A stretch of 20,244 nucleotides of DNA from a bacterium. Lineage in GTDB: Bacteria; AUK180. Both the position numbers and the translations under genes were made by a program. Positions 7,374 through 17,095 of this stretch are shown here, one piece after another; the first letter of the stretch is position 1; each line of letters starts with the position of its first letter. Location of the stretch: positions 1 to 20,244 of the forward strand of contig JAUXGM010000023.1 in assembly GCA_030622125.1 (NCBI GenBank), given 5' to 3'. The notes under the pieces were generated by a model. That model saw only the letters and a program-made list of their open reading frames with translations. It did not search any database and was not told the DNA's origin.

Positions 7374-7916
7374 ATGAGAATATTTTTAGCTGTTGAAATT
7401 CCGGATTACATAAAAGATAACATCTATGATTATTTTGAAAGACAAGGATTTTTTACATTAAAAGGACTTTCTTTTGTATCAAGGGAAAATCTTCATTTAA
7501 CCATTAAATTTCTTGGAGAGCAGGATGATACAATAGCGGATGAACTGAATTTCATCTCGGATCTAAGACAAAAATTGCTCCCAACTAAGATTAACTTTTC
7601 TGTATTTGATTACTGTATGTTCTCAAACCACAAGGCACCCAGAGTGCTTTGGGTTAATGTTTCCGATAATAAAAAGATACTTGTGAATTTTGCAAGGAAA
7701 TTGGAGTCGGAACTTTTTAATAGAAAGATCATTAAAGAGTCTACTGACAATTTCAGACCACATATTACAATAGCACGCAATAAAACAGGTAGAAAATTTA
7801 ATTTTGATAAGACAAAAAATCTCCGATTTGGAAAATTTAATATAAATAAAATTCTACTGTTCAAATCTACATTAACAAAAACCGGTCCGATATATGAAAA
7901 AATAAAAAGTTATTGA
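7374..7916 (+). CDS. thpR: RNA 2',3'-cyclic phosphodiesterase (ThpR/LigT, 2H family)
   Basis: The 180-residue length is normal for ThpR. It has the two HxTx motifs that define 2H phosphoesterases: HLTI at 41-44 (in HLTIKFLGE) and HITI at 130-133 (in RPHITIAR), plus the characteristic N-terminus MRIFLAVEIP. Family members hydrolyse 2',3'-cyclic phosphates on RNA ends in the cytoplasm. The ATG is 3 nt after the cinA stop, with no recognisable Shine-Dalgarno, so translation probably depends on ribosomes finishing cinA. The stop codon overlaps the next ATG by 1 nt (TGATG). cinA-thpR adjacency is widespread, often with recA next; here addBA follows instead. Confidence 0.93.
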   Translation: MRIFLAVEIPDYIKDNIYDYFERQGFFTLKGLSFVSRENLHLTIKFLGEQDDTIADELNFISDLRQKLLPTKINFSVFDYCMFSNHKAPRVLWVNVSDNKKILVNFARKLESELFNRKIIKESTDNFRPHITIARNKTGRKFNFDKTKNLRFGKFNINKILLFKSTLTKTGPIYEKIKSY

Positions 7917-10615
7917 TGGAACTCACTATCCTGCCTTCAAACCTTGCTCTTCAAAAGAAAATGGTTGAGGATGTTAAGAACAAAGGATTGTTTTTCGGTC
8001 AAAATATCATTACATACAACACATTTCTCAATAAGTTAAAAGCTGAATCAACATCCGATATGATGCCGATAACCAATTATGAATCACTTCATTTGATCTA
8101 TAATATACTCAAAGAAGAAAAGAATAATATATTTTCAAATGTTAGTAAAATTGAAGGTGAGATACTAAAATTTATAGAGAAAATAAAATTCGAAAATTTT
8201 ATATCGGGAAAACATATAGATGAAAATCTCATTAACGGCAGAAAATGGAGAGATCTTTATCTAATATATCAAAGCTACGAAAATCATCTTTCTGATCAAG
8301 GAATGATGGATGGAACGGATGTATTGAATTTTATTTTTGAAGAACTGGAGAACGCATCCTTTTTAAGAAAATACGACAGTTTGGTCTTTAAGAATTTTTA
8401 TATAATTGAGGATGAAGAAATTGCATTGATCTCCCGAATAAGTAAGTTAAAGAAGATCGTAATAGAAGTTGATATTCCATCGGATATGAAAGATGAATTT
8501 GAGGAAAAATTTATTCCTTATGATCTAAAAAATTTCTATAAACTAAACATATTTGAAAGCCAAAAGCCGGATATTACTGTTTTTAGCGGAAAAAATGGGG
8601 ATATTGAAATGAAATATCTCCTTCATTATATCTTGAAGGAATATGATGAAAAAAAAGATATCTCAATAATATTTTCCGACCGATCATTGCTTAATGAGAT
8701 AAGAACAATGCTTGATCAAGATCAAATCAGCTACTACTCCGGACATTCAAAGGGTATTGGAAACGATCCGATTATAAAGGCATTTAATCTTCTATTTAAT
8801 GGTTTTGAGAATAATTTTTCCAATAGTTACTTTTTAGCACTTACTTCAACAAAGGTCTTTAAATTTAGGAATTTCTTTAAGATATCATCAATAATTAAAC
8901 ATCATAATTTTATCAATGATCTAAAAAAATGGAAATTGTATTCGGATGACGGTGATCTCGATCTATTTATCCAATTTTTGGCGGAATTCTCTGATTTATT
9001 GGAAAAAGGGGATTTTTTAAATGATACTGAAAAATTATTCCAACTCTTTGAAGATAATCTTTCAGAGGATCTTGACCTTGACGGATACAGCAATCTCAAG
9101 GAAAATTTTTTAGTGATCAGGGATTTTTATATTCGGTTTAATTTTAAAATTGATAGAAATAATTTTTACAGGATCTTTAATGATCTTGCACAGAGTTTAA
9201 CATTAAGATCAAGATCAAGGAATATACTTGAGGGAATAATGATATTAAATCCTTATGATGCCGTTACAATTAGTCATGATACTTTATTTTTTCCCGGAAT
9301 GAATGCCAATATCTTTCCTAATTTTGTAAATAGAATGCCGATTTTTTCGATAGATGAACTAATGAGTAAATTTTCAATAGATACAAACTACAATATTTAT
9401 AAAAAAGAGGAGTTTAAGTTTAAAATTTTACTAAGTAAAACAAAGAAACTCTATATTTCATACAGAATCATGGGGGATGACGGGAATCCGCTTTTGAAGA
9501 GTAGCTTTATTGACAAGGTTCATCCGGATAGAGAAATTATATTTAATGGTGATTCATCGGACAATGAAAAAATTGATTATCTATGTTCTCTTGCCGACAA
9601 AAATATAGAATTCAAAAAGGAGTATGATAAGGCATTGGAATTTAATAATTATTTGGATTCACTTGATCCAGCTATTTTTGTAACTCCTCCGAGCAAAAAC
9701 AAAAGGTATCTTGGATTTTTGGAACAAGAAATTACTACGGAGTCATTTAGTATATCCGCATTGCAGGAATATGCCAATTGTCCGTATAGTTATTTCTTAA
9801 AATATATTCTCGGTTTGAAAGAAATGATCTATGAGGATGAGGGGGATAACTTTTTAGAGGGGAATATCTATCATGATGTTATGTTTAGAATTCAAGATCA
9901 ATTAAGGAAAAAAGAGTTTAATTATGATGAATTCAACAGGCAATTCAATAAGGTCATTGAAGGATTCATTAAGAAAGGTGAGATGCGTAATATCGGTTTT
10001 TTACCGTTTGAACAATACACCTATAAAAAAAAGATAAGGAATTTTATTGAAAATGAGATCAATGAATTAGGAAATGATGCGACAAGACAGGTAAAGTATT
10101 TTGAACTGCAATTAGGAAAACCATATAGAGATTATGGTGAATATGATCCAAACTCAAAATTGGATGAGATACTGATAAAAATAGGCAGTGATGAATTAAG
10201 ATTTGAGGGAAGGATTGACAGAGTTGATAAGATAAATGATCATTATGAATTGATCGATTATAAAGCTACTGTCGGTTATATCGATAAAAAAATGAAGCAC
10301 AATCTATTATTTCAAAATTATATCTATCAAAAATTATTTGAAAAAGCGAATCTTGGACATATCCATGATTTTGAATATAAGGGGATAAAGGATAACAAAA
10401 ATATCTCCGGGAGCAAGGTGGATATTGATGCTATTGATAAATTCATGGTATTGATCATAAAAAATATAAAAAATGGTAAATTCCCATTTTATTATACAAG
10501 ATCCATAACCAAATTCACCACCGTTAAGAATGAAAGTGAGATGAGTAGAAAATGCAAATTTTGTCCATTTAAAGGTATATGTCAAAGGAGGGATAAAAAC
10601 CTTGAATTCTATTAA
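7916..10615 (+). CDS. addB: AddB-like subunit of the AddAB helicase-nuclease
   Basis: This 899-residue AddB-type protein is shorter than Bacillus AddB (about 1,160). Its N-terminal helicase-like part is degenerate: no Walker A of the GxGxGKT kind is found, so it is probably non-motor. Numbering from the ATG at 7916, the C-terminal PD-(D/E)XK nuclease holds H653, GRID (D768), the DYK triad D781/K783 and QNYIY (Q800/Y804). One cysteine before the nuclease (C622, in YANCPYSYF) and three after it (KCKFCPFKGIC; C880, C883, C889) match the 4Fe-4S 'iron staple' known in AddB. With AddA it should process double-strand breaks for RecA loading. An in-frame TTG at 7913 is an alternative start, but the ATG in TGATG is preferred for stop-start coupling with thpR. 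Its end overlaps addA by 14 bp. Confidence 0.9.
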   Translation: MELTILPSNLALQKKMVEDVKNKGLFFGQNIITYNTFLNKLKAESTSDMMPITNYESLHLIYNILKEEKNNIFSNVSKIEGEILKFIEKIKFENFISGKHIDENLINGRKWRDLYLIYQSYENHLSDQGMMDGTDVLNFIFEELENASFLRKYDSLVFKNFYIIEDEEIALISRISKLKKIVIEVDIPSDMKDEFEEKFIPYDLKNFYKLNIFESQKPDITVFSGKNGDIEMKYLLHYILKEYDEKKDISIIFSDRSLLNEIRTMLDQDQISYYSGHSKGIGNDPIIKAFNLLFNGFENNFSNSYFLALTSTKVFKFRNFFKISSIIKHHNFINDLKKWKLYSDDGDLDLFIQFLAEFSDLLEKGDFLNDTEKLFQLFEDNLSEDLDLDGYSNLKENFLVIRDFYIRFNFKIDRNNFYRIFNDLAQSLTLRSRSRNILEGIMILNPYDAVTISHDTLFFPGMNANIFPNFVNRMPIFSIDELMSKFSIDTNYNIYKKEEFKFKILLSKTKKLYISYRIMGDDGNPLLKSSFIDKVHPDREIIFNGDSSDNEKIDYLCSLADKNIEFKKEYDKALEFNNYLDSLDPAIFVTPPSKNKRYLGFLEQEITTESFSISALQEYANCPYSYFLKYILGLKEMIYEDEGDNFLEGNIYHDVMFRIQDQLRKKEFNYDEFNRQFNKVIEGFIKKGEMRNIGFLPFEQYTYKKKIRNFIENEINELGNDATRQVKYFELQLGKPYRDYGEYDPNSKLDEILIKIGSDELRFEGRIDRVDKINDHYELIDYKATVGYIDKKMKHNLLFQNYIYQKLFEKANLGHIHDFEYKGIKDNKNISGSKVDIDAIDKFMVLIIKNIKNGKFPFYYTRSITKFTTVKNESEMSRKCKFCPFKGICQRRDKNLEFY

Positions 10616-13600
10616 AAAAGAGCTGGTATCTTATCTTAATATTTCAAAAGAAAAAGAAAAAAGCCTGGAAGATAATAATATTATTGTTACAGCAGGTGCC
10701 GGTTCGGGAAAAACCAAATCACTTGTAGCAAGATACCTTTATTTGATCCTGATAAAAAATATTCCACCGGAGAAGATACTTGCATTAACATATACCAATA
10801 AGGCAGCAGCAGAGATGAAAGAGAGGATCAGAAGAACTCTAATAGATATCTATGAAAAGGATGAGAAGGCAAAAAAATTAAGGCAGTTATTAAGGGATCA
10901 TTATGAGAATTTTGAAGAAAAAAAGGAAAAAGATCTTTTGGGAATAGAATTCTCTTTTATATCCACCTTTCATTCATTTGCACAATCTATTATTTCATCA
11001 ATGCCGATAGAATTCTCAAGCGGCGTAGATATTCAGATCATAGATGATATAGCCGAATTTATTCTTATTGACGATATCATTAAAGAAGTAATTACCGATA
11101 TATTGAATAATGGAAAAGATAATGCTCTTTACAAGGATATTGTTGATTTAATGGGCGTGATTTCTCTACAAAAACTTATGGAATATACAAAAACAGCGGT
11201 ATTATCATGGCATACAAAAGGACGGGAAAGGGGTATATACGATTTTTTTGAGACAAAGTATAAGGAATTCATTAGATCGGAATATAATGATACCTTAGAT
11301 CGTTTAAAGGAAAAACTGAAAATAGAACTTTTAAATATAAAGGATCATAGAATAAATATTAAAAAGAACAAAAATATTGAAACATTTGATAAACTCACTT
11401 CATTTTTGAGCAAATTCTCTATGGGAAACTCATTTTTTGATATTGCGAATTCACTCTTCCAAAGATTTCCAAGCTTTTCATTCAATAAAAATACTACAAA
11501 TGACGAAAAAGAATATCTTATAGAAATAGAAAAAACAATAGAAAATGTATTTGAAATATTAAATATCATCTATTCAGGTGTTATCATACGATTTGGCGAT
11601 CTTGTCAATAATAGGATGGAAGAAGAACTGCAAAAGAAAAATATACTGACCTTTTCAAGGATGATAGAACTTCTTGCAGATACATTAGAGAACAATAGAG
11701 AATTGAGAAACACATTACAAGTTAGGTTTGACGGGATACTGATAGATGAGTTTCAAGATGCGAATGATCTTGAAAAAAAAGTCGTCTACTATATTGCAGG
11801 AGAGGGGAAAGGTAATGATCTTGATAGTTTCACCTTTCCAAAAGGGAAACTCTACATAGTTGGAGACCCGAAGCAATCAATCTATTATTTTAGAAATGCC
11901 GATGTCTCGGTTTTTATAAAAACGATCTCACATTTTTATAAAATGAGCTATACTGTGTTGCAGTATGGAGATAACTATCGTTCGGAGGAAGAATTAATCG
12001 ATTACTATAACACTACTCTTTCAAAGATATTAAATGGAAAAAGCGGAAAGCTTTACGATATTGAATATGGCAGACCACTCAATTGTAAAAAAAACGAACC
12101 GACCGAAAATGGAGAGGTAGGATATATTGATACCGACGATATATATGAAAGCACAGCGCGATTGATTCTCCATTTAAAATATGAAGAAGGTTGCAATTTT
12201 AAAGATATTACTGTGTTGTTAAAGAACTATCGGAGTGAAATTGATAATTATACAAATCTTTTTGCTATATATAATATTCCTTTCCTCTCAAGTGGAGAAG
12301 ATACAATTGGTGATTATATAGAACTTGATAGTATAATTAAATATCTCGGTGCTCTTTCGAACCCCTATGATGATATTAAATTGATCTCGTTATTCAAAAC
12401 CCCGTTTTTTTATATTGACGATGTAACTCTTTATGATATCTCAAAAGTAGAAAAAAACAACTACTTTGAAAAATCAGAGGAATATTTTAAAGATCACAAA
12501 AAATTCAATTCCAAATTTTCTATTTTCAGGACACTTCTACAAGAGGTTAATATTAAAAGTAATGAAGATATTATTAAATCAATAATTAAAAGGAATAATT
12601 ACGATTATTATCTTTCATTAAGAGAGAACAAAAAGATTCTCATGTCAGGTGTAAATAAAATTATCAAAATAGCAAGAGAGTTAACTATTCAAAATCTATT
12701 TACATTTTACGAGTTATCTAATTATCTTAACAGTAACTCTGATATAATTCCCATAAACAATGATATTGCCAATGATGAAGATGTAGTTAGAATTATAACA
12801 GTTCACAAATCAAAAGGACTTGAATTTCCAATTGTTATTTATCCGCAAATGGATAAAGGAACAAAAAATAGAAATCGTTCGGTATTCTATATGGAAGAAA
12901 ACGGTATAATTTTTAAGTTTATAAAAAAAACTAAATATTTAGATTCTATCAAAACGCTGATCAATGATAAAGAGGAAAAAGAATACTACCGTCTTCTATA
13001 TGTTGCTTTTACAAGAGCTAAGGAGAAATTATTTTTATTAAGCAAGGATAATAAAAATAAGGAAATAAAGGATATCGTAAAAGAAGGATATGAATGGAAT
13101 GTTTCATTGAGTGAAATAGAAAATATTGAAATCACAAAAGAAAAAACAACTTTATTACCTATAAAGAAGATATCAATTATTCCATCGGAGATAGGAATGT
13201 CTGTAAGTAATTTCTTAGAGAATATCTGTTTTCAAGGGGATGGAAAAAAGGAGAAGAAGAAAGAGGTAAGATCGGAACTTGCTGTTATTGGTACAATAGT
13301 TCATAATATTTTGGAAAATGACGATTTTGAATTTGAAAAGGTTAATTTTAATGATCTACCCGAATCGGTCTATGAAAAGGTCAAGAATATTATAGAAAAA
13401 TATAAAAATTCATCAATTTTTAATGAAATATCCTCCTCAAACGGCAATGATTTTCGTGAGGTAGAAGTTGCCGGTATATATAATTATAATGGAGTAAATT
13501 ATATGTTACACGGCAGAATTGATCGTTTAATTATCAATAAGAATGGAAACGCTACATTGATTGATTACAAAACATCCATTTCAGGATCAGGATTTGAAAG

Positions 13601-13715
13601 GGATAAAATGCAGTTAAAAATATACAAGAAAATACTTTCAAATCGATTCAAAATTATCGATGCTTTTCTTCTTGACCTTGAAAACCTAAGAAAGATCAGG
13701 ATAAGCGAACAATGA
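10602..13715 (+). CDS. addA: AddA-like UvrD-family helicase-nuclease
   Basis: This 1,037-residue superfamily 1A helicase has a full motif set: Walker A AGAGSGKT (31-38), Ia [12 protein letters not shown] (61-72), II DEFQD (382-386), [14 protein letters not shown] (421-431), IV NYRS (458-461), [10 protein letters not shown] (733-741) and [13 protein letters not shown] (800-810). A C-terminal RecB-type nuclease domain carries H901, GRID (D974), DYK (D988/K990) and QLKIY (Q1004/Y1008), so both activities look intact. It is the 3'-5' motor and one of two nucleases of AddAB. The start is TTG at 10602: AGGAGGG (10586-10592) lies 9 nt upstream and no suitable ATG exists nearby. It starts within the last 14 bp of addB, and its end overlaps djlA by 4 bp, so subunit production is probably coupled. 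Confidence 0.94.
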
Positions 13716-14509
13716 AAAAAAGATTTATATTTAGACCTAAATGTGGTTCAATATTCTGGGGTGCTTTGATTGGACTTATATTCTTCAATATTCCCGGAGC
13801 GATCATTGGTGGAATAATAGGGGCAATTATTGATCAAATATCATCTTCGGGAACATCTGACAGAACAACCTATGCCAAAAGAAATGTGGCAGTTGAAGCA
13901 ATAACGAATTGTATGATGCTTGTTGCCGCTGCCGATAAAGTTATTAAGAATGTTGAAACGGATGTCATTGTGAATTTCTTTATTCAAAATGGCTTTGACA
14001 GTACTACACTTTTAGAGGTCAGAAAAACGATCAGTGATTTCAAAAGCTACCCCAGGGATATCTATTCGGTTACGGAGAATATCAATAAATATTTAAATTA
14101 TAATGACAAATTAGCAATTTTAAACTCTCTATTTATTATTGCTCTTGCCGACGGTATTATTACAAAAGATGAGGTCAAAACAATAAGGCAGATCGCTCAT
14201 CTGGTAAGGATAAAAACCTATGATTATAGCTCAATTCAATCACAGTATATTGATGCATCATCCAGGTATTATGAAAAAAAAGATCACAATCAATATTATT
14301 ATAAACAAAGGGGAAAAATAAATCCTTATGAAATACTAAGTGTTTCGGAAGAAGCATCAAAAGATGAGATAAAAAAAGCATATAGACGATTGGTAAAACA
14401 ACATCATCCCGATAAAGTTATGCATCTTGGGGAAGAGTTCAGAAAGATTGCAGAAGAGAAGATGAAAACGATAAATGAAGCGTATACGATGCTTGGTGGC
14501 AGGGATTGA
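13712..14509 (+). CDS. djlA: DjlA-like membrane co-chaperone (TM-TerB-DnaJ)
   Basis: This 265-residue protein has the DjlA architecture and length. A glycine-rich membrane segment is at about 12-41, with repeated small-residue spacing ([18 protein letters not shown]). A TerB-like helical domain is at about 58-168, with the acidic pairs [11 protein letters not shown] and [11 protein letters not shown] linker rich in Tyr, Lys and Gln follows, and a C-terminal J domain at 204-262 carries the HPD tripeptide (232-234) and NPYEIL start. The J domain should stimulate a DnaK partner at the membrane surface. ATGA overlaps the addA stop by 4 bp, so it is the last gene of the addBA run; a functional link to DNA repair is not evident. 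Nothing resembling a strong terminator follows it before the next promoter. Confidence 0.85.
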
Positions 14510-14583: not shown

Positions 14584-14982
14584 ATGAAGATAACAACACG
14601 ATTTATCTATGGACTTAAATTTCTTGAATATATTTATAAAAAAGATGATATCGTAAAGATGGATGAAGTGGTTTTTCACCTGGATATCTCAAAAAAATAC
14701 CTTGAAAAAATCTCAAGGCGGCTGCAAAAAAACGGGATCATAGAAACAGTAAGGGGACCGAACGGTGGATATAGGTTATGTGAAAATAACAATAATATTA
14801 ATCTATATTCAGTCTATATTGCATTAGAAGACAAGGTTGAAGAAGGAATTTGCTTTGAAAAACAGATATGCCGAACAAAGCTTTGCACTACAAGTAAAAT
14901 TCTTACAGATATTAATCAAGAGATAGCAACATATATGCAAAGGAAGAGTTTAATTTCATACTTTAAAGGAGAACAAAAATGA
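14584..14982 (+). CDS. Rrf2-family (IscR-like) transcriptional regulator
   Basis: The 132-residue protein has an N-terminal winged helix (about 1-65) with the Rrf2 signature LDISKKYLEKISRRLQKNG and the wing RGPNGGYRL (58-65). Three cysteines follow in the ligand region: C90, C96 and C101. IscR binds a [2Fe-2S] cluster through a similar C-x5-C-x5-C set, so a cluster-sensing role is inferred; spacing here is C-x5-C-x4-C. The gene follows its own promoter closely and overlaps the desulfurase start by 4 bp (ATGA). Like iscR heading isc operons, it probably represses its own operon when clusters are plentiful. The Shine-Dalgarno is weak (AAGG at 14569-14572). Confidence 0.88.
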   Translation: MKITTRFIYGLKFLEYIYKKDDIVKMDEVVFHLDISKKYLEKISRRLQKNGIIETVRGPNGGYRLCENNNNINLYSVYIALEDKVEEGICFEKQICRTKLCTTSKILTDINQEIATYMQRKSLISYFKGEQK

Positions 14983-16130
14983 AAGGATATTACTTTGATA
15001 ATATTGCCGCTACAAAGGTTGACAAAGAAGTAATAAAAGCAATGCTCCCATATTTTGACACTTATTACGCTATGCCTTCCTCACAGTTTTCTCATCAACC
15101 CGGCATATTCATAACGGATAAAATTGAACAAGCAAGAAAGAATATTGCTCACTTTATCAATGCCGATAAGGACGAAATAATATTTACATCGGGTGAAACC
15201 GAATCAAATAATCTTGCTATAAAGGGAGTGGCAAGAGCGAACAAAAAAAGAGGGAATCATATAATTACAGTTAAAAATGAACATAGATCCGTCTTAAATT
15301 CCTTTAAAACACTTGAAAAAGAAGGCTTTGATGTTACCTATCTTGATGTTGATGGTGAGGGATCCGTTGATCTCCAACAGATAAAAGATTCAATACGAGA
15401 TAATACTATATTGCTCTCGGTAGCCCTTGTTGATCAAGTAGTAGGAACGATCCAGCCGATAGCCGAGATAGGAAAATTAATAAAAGAAAAGCAGGTAATA
15501 TTTCATACTAATGCAACCTATGGACTCGGTTACCTTCCCCTTGATGTTAAAAAAATGGGTGTTGATCTTTTAACCATTAGTGGAGATAAAGCTCATGCAC
15601 CAAAGGGAATCGGTGTCCTTTATAAAAGAAAAGATATAAATATCAATAGAATATTTGATGGGAATTTTAATGAATTTTATATAAGACCCGGTATTGAAAA
15701 TGTTCCGGGAATCATTGGCTTTTCAAAGGCAGTTGATCTTTTAAAACATAATGAGAATACAATAGAAAAGATAAATGAATTACGCGATATACTTATTGAC
15801 AAACTTTTAACGATAGGGGACTCCGTATTGAATGGATCAAGAACAAAAAGAGTGGCAAACAATGTCAATATTACTTTTTATAAGGTTGAGGGTGAATCGG
15901 TAATGTTGCATCTTGATATGAATGGGATTTCCGTTACTACCGGATCCGCCTGTTTTTCCAGATCATTGGAACCGGACTATGTTCTAAGTTCCATGGGTTT
16001 TGATCATGAAAGGATACACGGCTCTATAAGATATTCTCTTTCAAAATACAATACTAAGGAAGAGGTTGAATATGTTAGCGAAAAGACAAAAAAAATTATT
16101 AAAAGATTAAGGGAAATTAGCCCCTTATAG
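14979..16130 (+). CDS. Divergent NifS/IscS-like cysteine desulfurase
   Basis: This 383-residue fold-type I PLP enzyme aligns end to end with NifS/IscS. It keeps FTSGETESNN (69-78), the PLP-stacking His in NEHRSVL (H102), GTIQPI (156-161), Schiff-base Lys204 (SGDKAHAPKGIG), RPGIENV (236-242), the persulfide-forming Cys325 (TGSACFS) and SIRYSL. Several IscS cofactor contacts differ: the Asp facing the pyridine nitrogen (HVDAAQ) is Asn178 in HTNATY, the following Gln is Tyr181, the NNE triplet is DQV (152-154), and the His before the lysine is Asp203. The start YFDNIAAT also departs from DNAATT. Expected role: release sulfur from cysteine for the adjacent scaffold and perhaps the TusA-like protein. 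The substitutions leave activity and substrate uncertain; a specialised or altered PLP enzyme is possible. Confidence 0.85.
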   Translation: MKGYYFDNIAATKVDKEVIKAMLPYFDTYYAMPSSQFSHQPGIFITDKIEQARKNIAHFINADKDEIIFTSGETESNNLAIKGVARANKKRGNHIITVKNEHRSVLNSFKTLEKEGFDVTYLDVDGEGSVDLQQIKDSIRDNTILLSVALVDQVVGTIQPIAEIGKLIKEKQVIFHTNATYGLGYLPLDVKKMGVDLLTISGDKAHAPKGIGVLYKRKDININRIFDGNFNEFYIRPGIENVPGIIGFSKAVDLLKHNENTIEKINELRDILIDKLLTIGDSVLNGSRTKRVANNVNITFYKVEGESVMLHLDMNGISVTTGSACFSRSLEPDYVLSSMGFDHERIHGSIRYSLSKYNTKEEVEYVSEKTKKIIKRLREISPL

Positions 16131-16140
16131 AGGAGGAATT

Positions 16141-16800
16141 ATGTCGATACCATATACAAAGAAGATATTGGAAAACTTTTTACATCCCAAAAATGTTGGT
16201 GAAATTAAAAACGCCGACGCTATTGCAACGGAGGGTTCTTCGATTTGTGGTGATGTTGTTAAACTTTTCATAAAAGTTGACCCGAAAACGCATAAGATAG
16301 TTGATATTAAGTTTAAGTCCTATGGCTGTGCGGCAAACATTGCAACTGCTTCTATTATTACTGAACTTGCAAAAGGAAAAACAATTAATAAGGCAAAAAA
16401 GATCAGTTGGGAAAAAGCCAATAAAGAGCTTGGTGGGCTTCCACCCGTTAAGGTTCACTGTGCGGTTTTAGCGATTGATGCGTTGAAGTCGGCAATTGAT
16501 AATTATGAACAGGCACATGGACTTATAAGGGAAAAAGTGCCGACTGATGGAAAAATAATTATTAAACGATTACGTCATATCATCAATCCGATATTTGGAA
16601 AAGATGTTGTTTCCACCAAACTAATAAAGGAAATTAAGATAAAAGATGGAATTATTTCCATTAAAATGAATTTAGCACCCGATCACCAATTCTATAACAA
16701 CATTTCAGATGAAATAAAAGAACGCCTCGAACCTCTCTGGGATGTCAAAAAAGTTGACATTGTTGGGGACTTAGACAGTCTGACATCGCAAAAGTCCTAA
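16141..16800 (+). CDS. IscU-type Fe-S scaffold fused to a MIP18/DUF59-like domain
   Basis: The N-terminal part (about 3-125) of this 219-residue protein is an IscU/NifU-N scaffold with all cluster residues: C36 and D38 in SSICGD, C63 in KSYGCAAN, and H106/C107 in PPVKVHCAVL. A linker follows. The second domain, about 135-213, has the pattern of the MIP18/DUF59 (SufT-like) family: a helix ending at INPIFGKDVVS, then strands KIKDGIISIKMNL and a helix before VKKVDIV. The Cys that many DUF59 proteins carry after the LT strand is absent (LAPDHQFYNN). Classical NifU instead ends in a CxxC Nfu domain, which is missing here. The DUF59 match is by pattern only. A strong AGGAGG (16131-16136) precedes the ATG, 10 bp after the desulfurase stop, so both proteins are probably made together to assemble clusters. 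Confidence 0.82.
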   Translation: MSIPYTKKILENFLHPKNVGEIKNADAIATEGSSICGDVVKLFIKVDPKTHKIVDIKFKSYGCAANIATASIITELAKGKTINKAKKISWEKANKELGGLPPVKVHCAVLAIDALKSAIDNYEQAHGLIREKVPTDGKIIIKRLRHIINPIFGKDVVSTKLIKEIKIKDGIISIKMNLAPDHQFYNNISDEIKERLEPLWDVKKVDIVGDLDSLTSQKS

Positions 16801-16846: not shown

Positions 16847-17095
16847 ATGAAAAATCAACAGAATCAACCACCGTCCCTAATCGATGTCATCGGTAAGAGT
16901 TGCCCGTATCCTCTTATTGAGATGAGGAGAGCAATACTTTCTGCAAATGATGGGGATTTTCTAATAATAAAAGGTGATCATGAAAAATCATTTAGCGAAA
17001 TACAGATGGGAGCCGAATCAATGAGCTGTGAGATCATAGAAAAAACAATCGATAAAAATGGTGTTTGGATAATAAAAATACTTGTAAAAAAATAA
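16847..17095 (+). CDS. TusA/SirA-family sulfur-carrier protein
   Basis: This 82-residue protein has the TusA signature IGKSCPYPLIEMRRAI with the CPxP cysteine at residue 19, which accepts persulfide sulfur in known members. The alpha/beta sandwich continues to VWIIKILV. It starts 46 bp after the scaffold gene, behind a purine-rich stretch (GAGAGAGAA), and probably belongs to the same operon. Receiving sulfur from the upstream desulfurase is inferred from position and family. Known TusA proteins feed tRNA thiolation or molybdenum-cofactor and sulfur metabolism; nothing here decides which. Residues 1-10 (QQNQPPS) are a variable extension. Confidence 0.85.
   Translation: MKNQQNQPPSLIDVIGKSCPYPLIEMRRAILSANDGDFLIIKGDHEKSFSEIQMGAESMSCEIIEKTIDKNGVWIIKILVKK

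Follow-up and report, generated by a model that had tools for sequence, protein, structure and literature searches.

The NifS/IscS-like protein encoded in the window (the whole 20,244-nucleotide stretch analysed here) differs from E. coli IscS at five of ten contacts around the cofactor PLP (Asn155, Asp180, Gln183, His205, and Thr243'), and its gene lies in a compact Fe-S cluster assembly operon (Table 1). We put at about 0.5 the probability that this protein partners IscU with its own desulfurase activity strongly reduced or lost, resembling Archaeoglobus fulgidus IscS (AfIscS) and using sulfide-derived sulfur. In such a system, the divergent IscS/NifS would be the obligatory partner of a fusion between IscU and FeS_assembly_P in a minimal (MIS-like) operon, within a clade in which selection on PLP chemistry may have relaxed, with the flexible loop bearing Cys325 and the association with IscU retained. 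The NifS-like dimer would dock IscU in the manner of ordinary IscS, and Cys325 could then reach the three cysteines of IscU and act either as a sulfur carrier or as a fourth cluster ligand, as in the A. fulgidus IscS-IscU complex. Sulfur would come mainly from environmental or intracellular sulfide, and PLP-dependent cysteine desulfuration would be strongly reduced or absent.

Table 1. Genes of the cluster and pocket codons of the NifS/IscS-like protein in the window.
Feature	Position	Strand	Basis or remark
Rrf2/IscR-like regulator with Cys cluster	14584..14982	+	Rrf2 5.9e-23; TIGR00738 passes its cut-off; IscR falls short of its own at 71.5 bits
NifS/IscS-like protein, remodelled PLP pocket	14979..16130	+	384 codons, 383 aa; PF00266 Aminotran_5 1e-77
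Clade-marking loop PSSQFSHQPG	15075..15104	+	Two residues longer than in most NifS; confined to the 13 insert-clade rows
His102 codon (E. coli His104), kept	15282..15284	+	Alignment
Gln153 codon (E. coli Asn155), changed	15435..15437	+	His in other AUK180 proteins
Asn178 codon AAT, replacing E. coli Asp180 (Asp at the pyridine nitrogen)	15510..15512	+	Alignment
Tyr181 codon (E. coli Gln183), changed	15519..15521	+	5/5 AUK180 proteins
Asp203-Lys204 codons	15585..15590	+	E. coli His205 (phosphate contact, changed) and Lys206 (Schiff-base lysine, kept)
Ile239 codon, replacing E. coli Thr243' (cross-dimer phosphate contact)	15693..15695	+	Ile/Leu/Met in AUK180
Cys325 codon (E. coli Cys328, persulfide cysteine), kept, in TGSACFSRSLEP	15951..15953	+	Alignment
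IscU-type scaffold (NifU_N) fused to C-terminal FeS_assembly_P (DUF59/MIP18-like)	16141..16800	+	NifU_N 1e-41; PF01883 2.8e-12
TusA-like sulfur carrier, CPYP motif	16847..17095	+	PF01206 1.5e-13

Residues were mapped onto E. coli IscS taken from NC_000913.3. An earlier note on this DNA had listed Lys204, His102, and Cys325 as kept, and Asn178, Tyr181, Asp203, and a DQV triplet (residues 152-154) as standing in place of Asp180, Gln183, His205, and NNE. The alignment returned each of these residues exactly, and it added the replacement of Thr243' by Ile239, which the note had overlooked. The DQV triplet is peculiar to the window protein; NHE stands there in the remaining four AUK180 proteins. 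Thr76, Ser203, and Arg354 are also kept, as Thr74, Ser201, and Arg351. Asn155 and Arg354 have established roles in IscS, Arg354 binding the substrate. Two of the replacements, His205 to Asp203 and Thr243' to Ile239, alter phosphate contacts; the second is counted as a loss because the equivalent Thr268 of the T. onnurineus enzyme (ToCDS) binds phosphate, as does the counterpart of His205, the phosphate there being held by Ser87, His215, Ser213, and Thr268 (PMC5426080).

Judged by the features of group I cysteine desulfurases, the window protein has the fold and family membership, the Schiff-base lysine, the cysteine of the SGSAC loop, and the equivalents of His104 and Arg354, and it lacks Asp180, Gln183, His205, Thr243', and a curated equivalog score. 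Its best NCBIfam match is NifS, at 432 bits under a cut-off of 530.75, and the IscS equivalogs also score below their cut-offs (378.6 versus 643.2 and 395.1 versus 548 bits). An AlphaFold2 model built from nine sequences has a mean pLDDT of 81.8, with the insertion loop (residues 28-40), residues 227-238, and the Cys loop (325-329) modelled at low confidence; its top Foldseek matches among PDB folds are NFS1, AfIscS, and EcIscS (TM about 0.9), and, containing no cofactor, the model carries no information on PLP binding.

The remodelling is a property of the lineage. The window's genome (2.08 Mb, 96% complete) has as its nearest named MAG AUK180 (67% identity), which gives its name to a GTDB phylum, alternatively Ca. 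Uvuciota, with genomes from deep-sea and marine hydrothermal sediments (PMC11382960). Five of the seven AUK180 genomes sampled belong to the window's family (G000-G004), and all five carry the gene, at 54-100% identity. Tyr181, Asp203, and an Ile, Leu, or Met at position 239 occur in every one; Asn178 occurs in four, representing three genera (G000, G002, G001, and G004), and G003 has Asp. Lys204 is present in all five with a synonymous codon change, and the Asn178 codon likewise differs synonymously (AAT/AAC) between G001 and G004. With dN/dS at about 0.12 for G004/G001 (0.029/0.247) and 0.14 for G000/G002, a pair with synonymous sites near saturation, the gene is under purifying selection. 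Among 104 sampled relatives outside the clade described below, Asp180 is invariant (104/104), and Tyr181, Asp203, Asn178, and loss of Thr243 are found in none, a count made on correctly read rows (with L140 and L159 left out and L110 assigned to the clade) from relatives chosen by similarity to that clade, so that the frequencies are not population frequencies.

It is scarcely credible that these replacements reflect an artefact or ordinary variation, such as misalignment, assembly error, or a decaying pseudogene. The window does come from a metagenome assembly and Asp is present in G003, but the same residues recur in independent MAGs of three genera. The earlier note had allowed that the Asp might be supplied from nearby; the HTNATY region aligns without gaps, and residues 171-188 contain no Asp or Glu, so that no substitute acid takes the place of Asp180. 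The ungapped alignment thus excludes misalignment and a shifted Asp, and the dN/dS values together with the open frame in all genomes exclude a pseudogene. Moreover, the departures concentrate on the cofactor. In columns conserved in at least 85% of 43 canonical rows, 56% of AUK180 cells are changed at nine PLP contacts versus 14% in 75 other columns (permutation p = 0.0016), and in the window protein alone 56% versus 13% (p = 0.007), both p values being approximate since columns are treated as exchangeable. This concentration, together with the number of contacts changed, is one reason for preferring strongly reduced or lost desulfurase activity.

In trees computed with IQ-TREE, the second of them with the key columns and insert columns removed, the AUK180 proteins form a single group (100/100) nested in a clade of 13 proteins that share the two-residue, PSSQFSHQ-like insertion (99/94). 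This insert clade includes, besides AUK180, proteins of Aenigmatarchaeota, Spirochaetota, and other bacterial genomes. Its sister (100/99), with members from Zixiibacteriota, Calditrichota, and others, mostly has His or Tyr for Asn155 in pockets that are otherwise near canonical. Within AUK180, G003 branches with G000 and G002 at only moderate support (95/82 and 85/81 in the two trees), so that Asn178 may have arisen once and reverted in G003, or arisen twice.

Across the insert clade, the PLP pocket drifts while the cysteine loop stays intact. The lysine is replaced by Thr in three members (L044, L056, and L110); His104 by Pro (L012), Arg (L048), Asp (L056 and L110), or Asn (L060); and His205 by Asp in AUK180, L047, L048, and L110. 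Position 183 is occupied by Tyr, Phe, His, Ile, or Gln, and position 243 by Ile (as in L056), Leu, Met, Val, Ser, or Thr. The loop GSAC(F/Y)S, in contrast, does not vary among the 11 tabulated insert-clade rows that extend over it, and L110 has it as well. The loss of the lysine in three members and of His104 in others, set beside this invariant loop, further inclines us to an IscU partner with little or no desulfurase activity, as does the complete genome G240 (2 contigs, 100% complete), in which no NifS/SufS-type protein was found besides the lysine-less L110. That protein (also L167; G240:C1:175753-176886) has Thr for the lysine, has lost His104, Gln183, Ser203, and His205, and is encoded next to an IscU fusion.

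The operon context ties the protein to cluster assembly. The earlier note had placed a regulator, a scaffold, and a TusA-like protein beside the gene, and profile matches identify these as Rrf2/IscR-like, IscU-type, and TusA-like; the regulator gene overlaps the start of the nifS-like gene by four bases (ATGA), and the scaffold keeps the CGD, YGCA, HCA, and LPPVK motifs. The same gene order is found in L041 and L042. The IscU-FeS_assembly_P fusion adjoins insert-clade genes in AUK180, L044, L056, L057, L058, L060, and L110 (the last judged by eye), that is, in all readable insert-clade cases but one: L048 has no adjoining scaffold, and at L047 the contig edge is reached. It also adjoins the sister-clade gene L015 and is absent beside the AfIscS-like L018, where IscU is unfused. 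The fusion therefore marks the insert and sister clades, lysine-less members included, and the fact that it partners members with and without the lysine alike is another reason for our preferred reading. A literature search with little coverage of subscription journals found no paper describing a NifU_N-FeS_assembly_P fusion.

Several neighbouring genes were observed in passing. In the window, positions 7913-13715 hold genes that look by eye to be AddB-like and AddA-like (UvrD/PD-(D/E)XK) and that start with TTG; a TerB-DnaJ protein follows at 13712-14509. Elsewhere in the insert clade, L057 and L058 show a tandem arrangement in which a canonical nifS and then a short IscU-like protein without the CGD motif precede the insert-clade nifS and the IscU fusion. 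Two unrelated genomes (L056:1044-1478 and L047:3754-4278) encode a small DsrE-like protein immediately upstream of their insert-clade nifS, which suggests another sulfur-relay partner.

Four of the AUK180 genomes show no other desulfurase. The search for a second canonical enzyme that the earlier note had advised, made with PF00266 and SufS, found no other NifS, IscS, or SufS in the 96% complete assembly of the window's genome; its remaining PF00266-like proteins were rejected as desulfurases by sequence inspection, being of the SerC, DegT, AONS/KBL, aspartate aminotransferase, and glycine decarboxylase types. G001, G002, and G004 likewise have only SerC/DegT-type proteins besides the remodelled copy, these absences being judged on MAGs that are 91-96% complete. 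SufB/D is absent from the seven AUK180-phylum genomes searched, which rules out SUF as an alternative system. G003 has an additional canonical NifS (L039/P0002), and its remodelled copy (L042:3981-5156) has Asp at the pyridine position and Pro for His104. G006, of the same class and 72% complete, has the lysine-less L018 as its sole copy. Six insert-clade genomes outside AUK180 also have a canonical NifS or SufS.

This sole-copy status is also what makes a genuine cysteine desulfurase with an altered cofactor environment a serious alternative, to which we give somewhat less than an even chance. Lys204 would bind PLP, Asn178 (with the pyridine nitrogen unprotonated or weakly protonated) and Tyr181 would replace Asp and Gln, and a slower or retuned enzyme would feed persulfide to IscU, TusA, and MnmA. 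Some PLP enzymes function without the Asp, alanine racemase using Arg and tryptophan synthase Ser. The protein is the only NifS/SufS-type protein in four of the five AUK180 genomes, its Lys, His, Arg, Ser, and Thr contacts and the Cys are kept under purifying selection, and His102 is missing only from G003, which also has a canonical paralogue. MnmA is encoded in all seven AUK180-phylum genomes, with both catalytic cysteines in G000 and G004, and together with the TusA neighbour suggests a need for persulfide. Lys204 in 5/5 proteins, His102 in the four sole-copy genomes, the kept Arg351, Thr74, and Ser201, and the persulfide traffic implied by MnmA and TusA all weigh against a complete loss of desulfurase activity. 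Against a working desulfurase, the phosphate subsite is changed as well (His205 to Asp, Thr243' to Ile/Leu/Met), and lysine-less members show the same changes (Asp205 in L110, Ile243 in L056). In E. coli IscS, moreover, H104Q, D180G, Q183E, K206A, and C328S abolish desulfurase activity and R354K remains active (PMC9978102). The inactivity of D180G and Q183E speaks for our preferred reading, although the Asp-to-Asn replacement seen here is milder than the tested D180G, which counts against it.

The best PDB sequence match to the window protein is AfIscS (PDB 4eb5, 4eb7, 4hvk), which likewise keeps the Cys loop, has an IscU partner and a degenerate PLP site, and comes from an anaerobe. AfIscS is described as supplying a cluster ligand to IscU without desulfurase activity (PMC7585200), a precedent that also underlies our preferred reading. 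The two proteins nevertheless degenerate differently: AfIscS has lost the lysine (Asp199), has Leu for Arg354, and keeps the pyridine Asp and Asn155, and the window protein is the opposite on all four. In the trees, AfIscS falls in a separate lysine-less clade with eight sampled bacterial proteins (L018, L023, L034, L130, L135, L143, L149, and L162), in which the lysine is Asp, Arg, Gln, or Ser and Arg354 is Leu, Gln, or Glu. Several genomes with such a protein also have a canonical copy. Membership of the window protein in this group, considered on the strength of the PDB match, was rejected by the tree and by Lys204 and Arg351; it is possible, by analogy, that the protein works like AfIscS without belonging to its group. 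Methanosarcina acetivorans IscS1 (PMC7585200) offers a similar case, an IscS homologue that pairs with IscU and has altered PLP-binding residues, but it lacks the lysine and coexists with canonical IscS2/3.

Compared with E. coli IscS and human NFS1, the window protein shares the fold and the equivalents of Lys206, His104, Cys328, and Arg354, and differs in having Asp180, Gln183, His205, Thr243', and Asn155 replaced; unlike in the E. coli system, its gene cluster contains no HscBA, ferredoxin, or IscA. The adjacency of an iscS homologue and iscU in a cluster without chaperones or carriers (hscBA, fdx, or iscA), seen in the window, L041, and L042, resembles the two-gene IscS-IscU type of MIS, or minimal ISC (as defined in PMC12192291). 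The window departs from that type in its scaffold fused to FeS_assembly_P, its altered pocket, and the adjoining Rrf2 and TusA genes. Hydrogen sulfide rescues anaerobic E. coli lacking IscS, with IscU still required (PMC13015791), and AUK180 habitats are probably sulfide-rich; both points favour a sulfide-fed IscU partner.

A change of substrate or of PLP reaction (to selenocysteine or some other amino acid, for instance, or to C-S lyase activity) we consider improbable. Substrate and cofactor contacts are indeed remodelled, with Gln or His for Asn155 and Tyr for Gln183, but PLP contacts are lost across the clade without a new conserved set emerging, the Cys loop is conserved, the operon link to IscU and TusA is strict, and the genome has no other sulfur supplier. 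The subfamily with altered chemistry or substrate that the earlier note had envisaged is real as a remodelled and maintained subfamily, whereas the altered chemistry or substrate is conjectural, as the clade looks equally like an erosion of PLP chemistry. Taken to its furthest point, our preferred reading would leave the phylum with no working cysteine desulfurase for Fe-S cluster assembly, its sole IscS being a near-pseudoenzyme that gives the IscU-DUF59 fusion a cysteine ligand or sulfide-derived persulfide; the clade would then record a stepwise loss of PLP chemistry, in which phosphate and ring contacts changed while the lysine was still kept. We advance this stronger form tentatively and think it rather doubtful.

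Outside some archaea, Fe-S assembly and tRNA thiolation are normally held to require cysteine desulfurase activity, and AUK180, a small and little-known phylum, seemingly has no canonical desulfurase except in one genome. The graded states of the clade, from an intact pocket to loss of the lysine, make it testable whether, in the presence of sulfide, IscS matters for its PLP chemistry or for its cysteine loop and its docking of IscU. The Asp-to-Asn replacement at the pyridine nitrogen in a sole-copy protein is in itself a natural test of the textbook rule for fold type I PLP enzymes. If our preferred reading is true, AUK180 cells may depend little, or not at all, on cysteine desulfurase chemistry to assemble their clusters.
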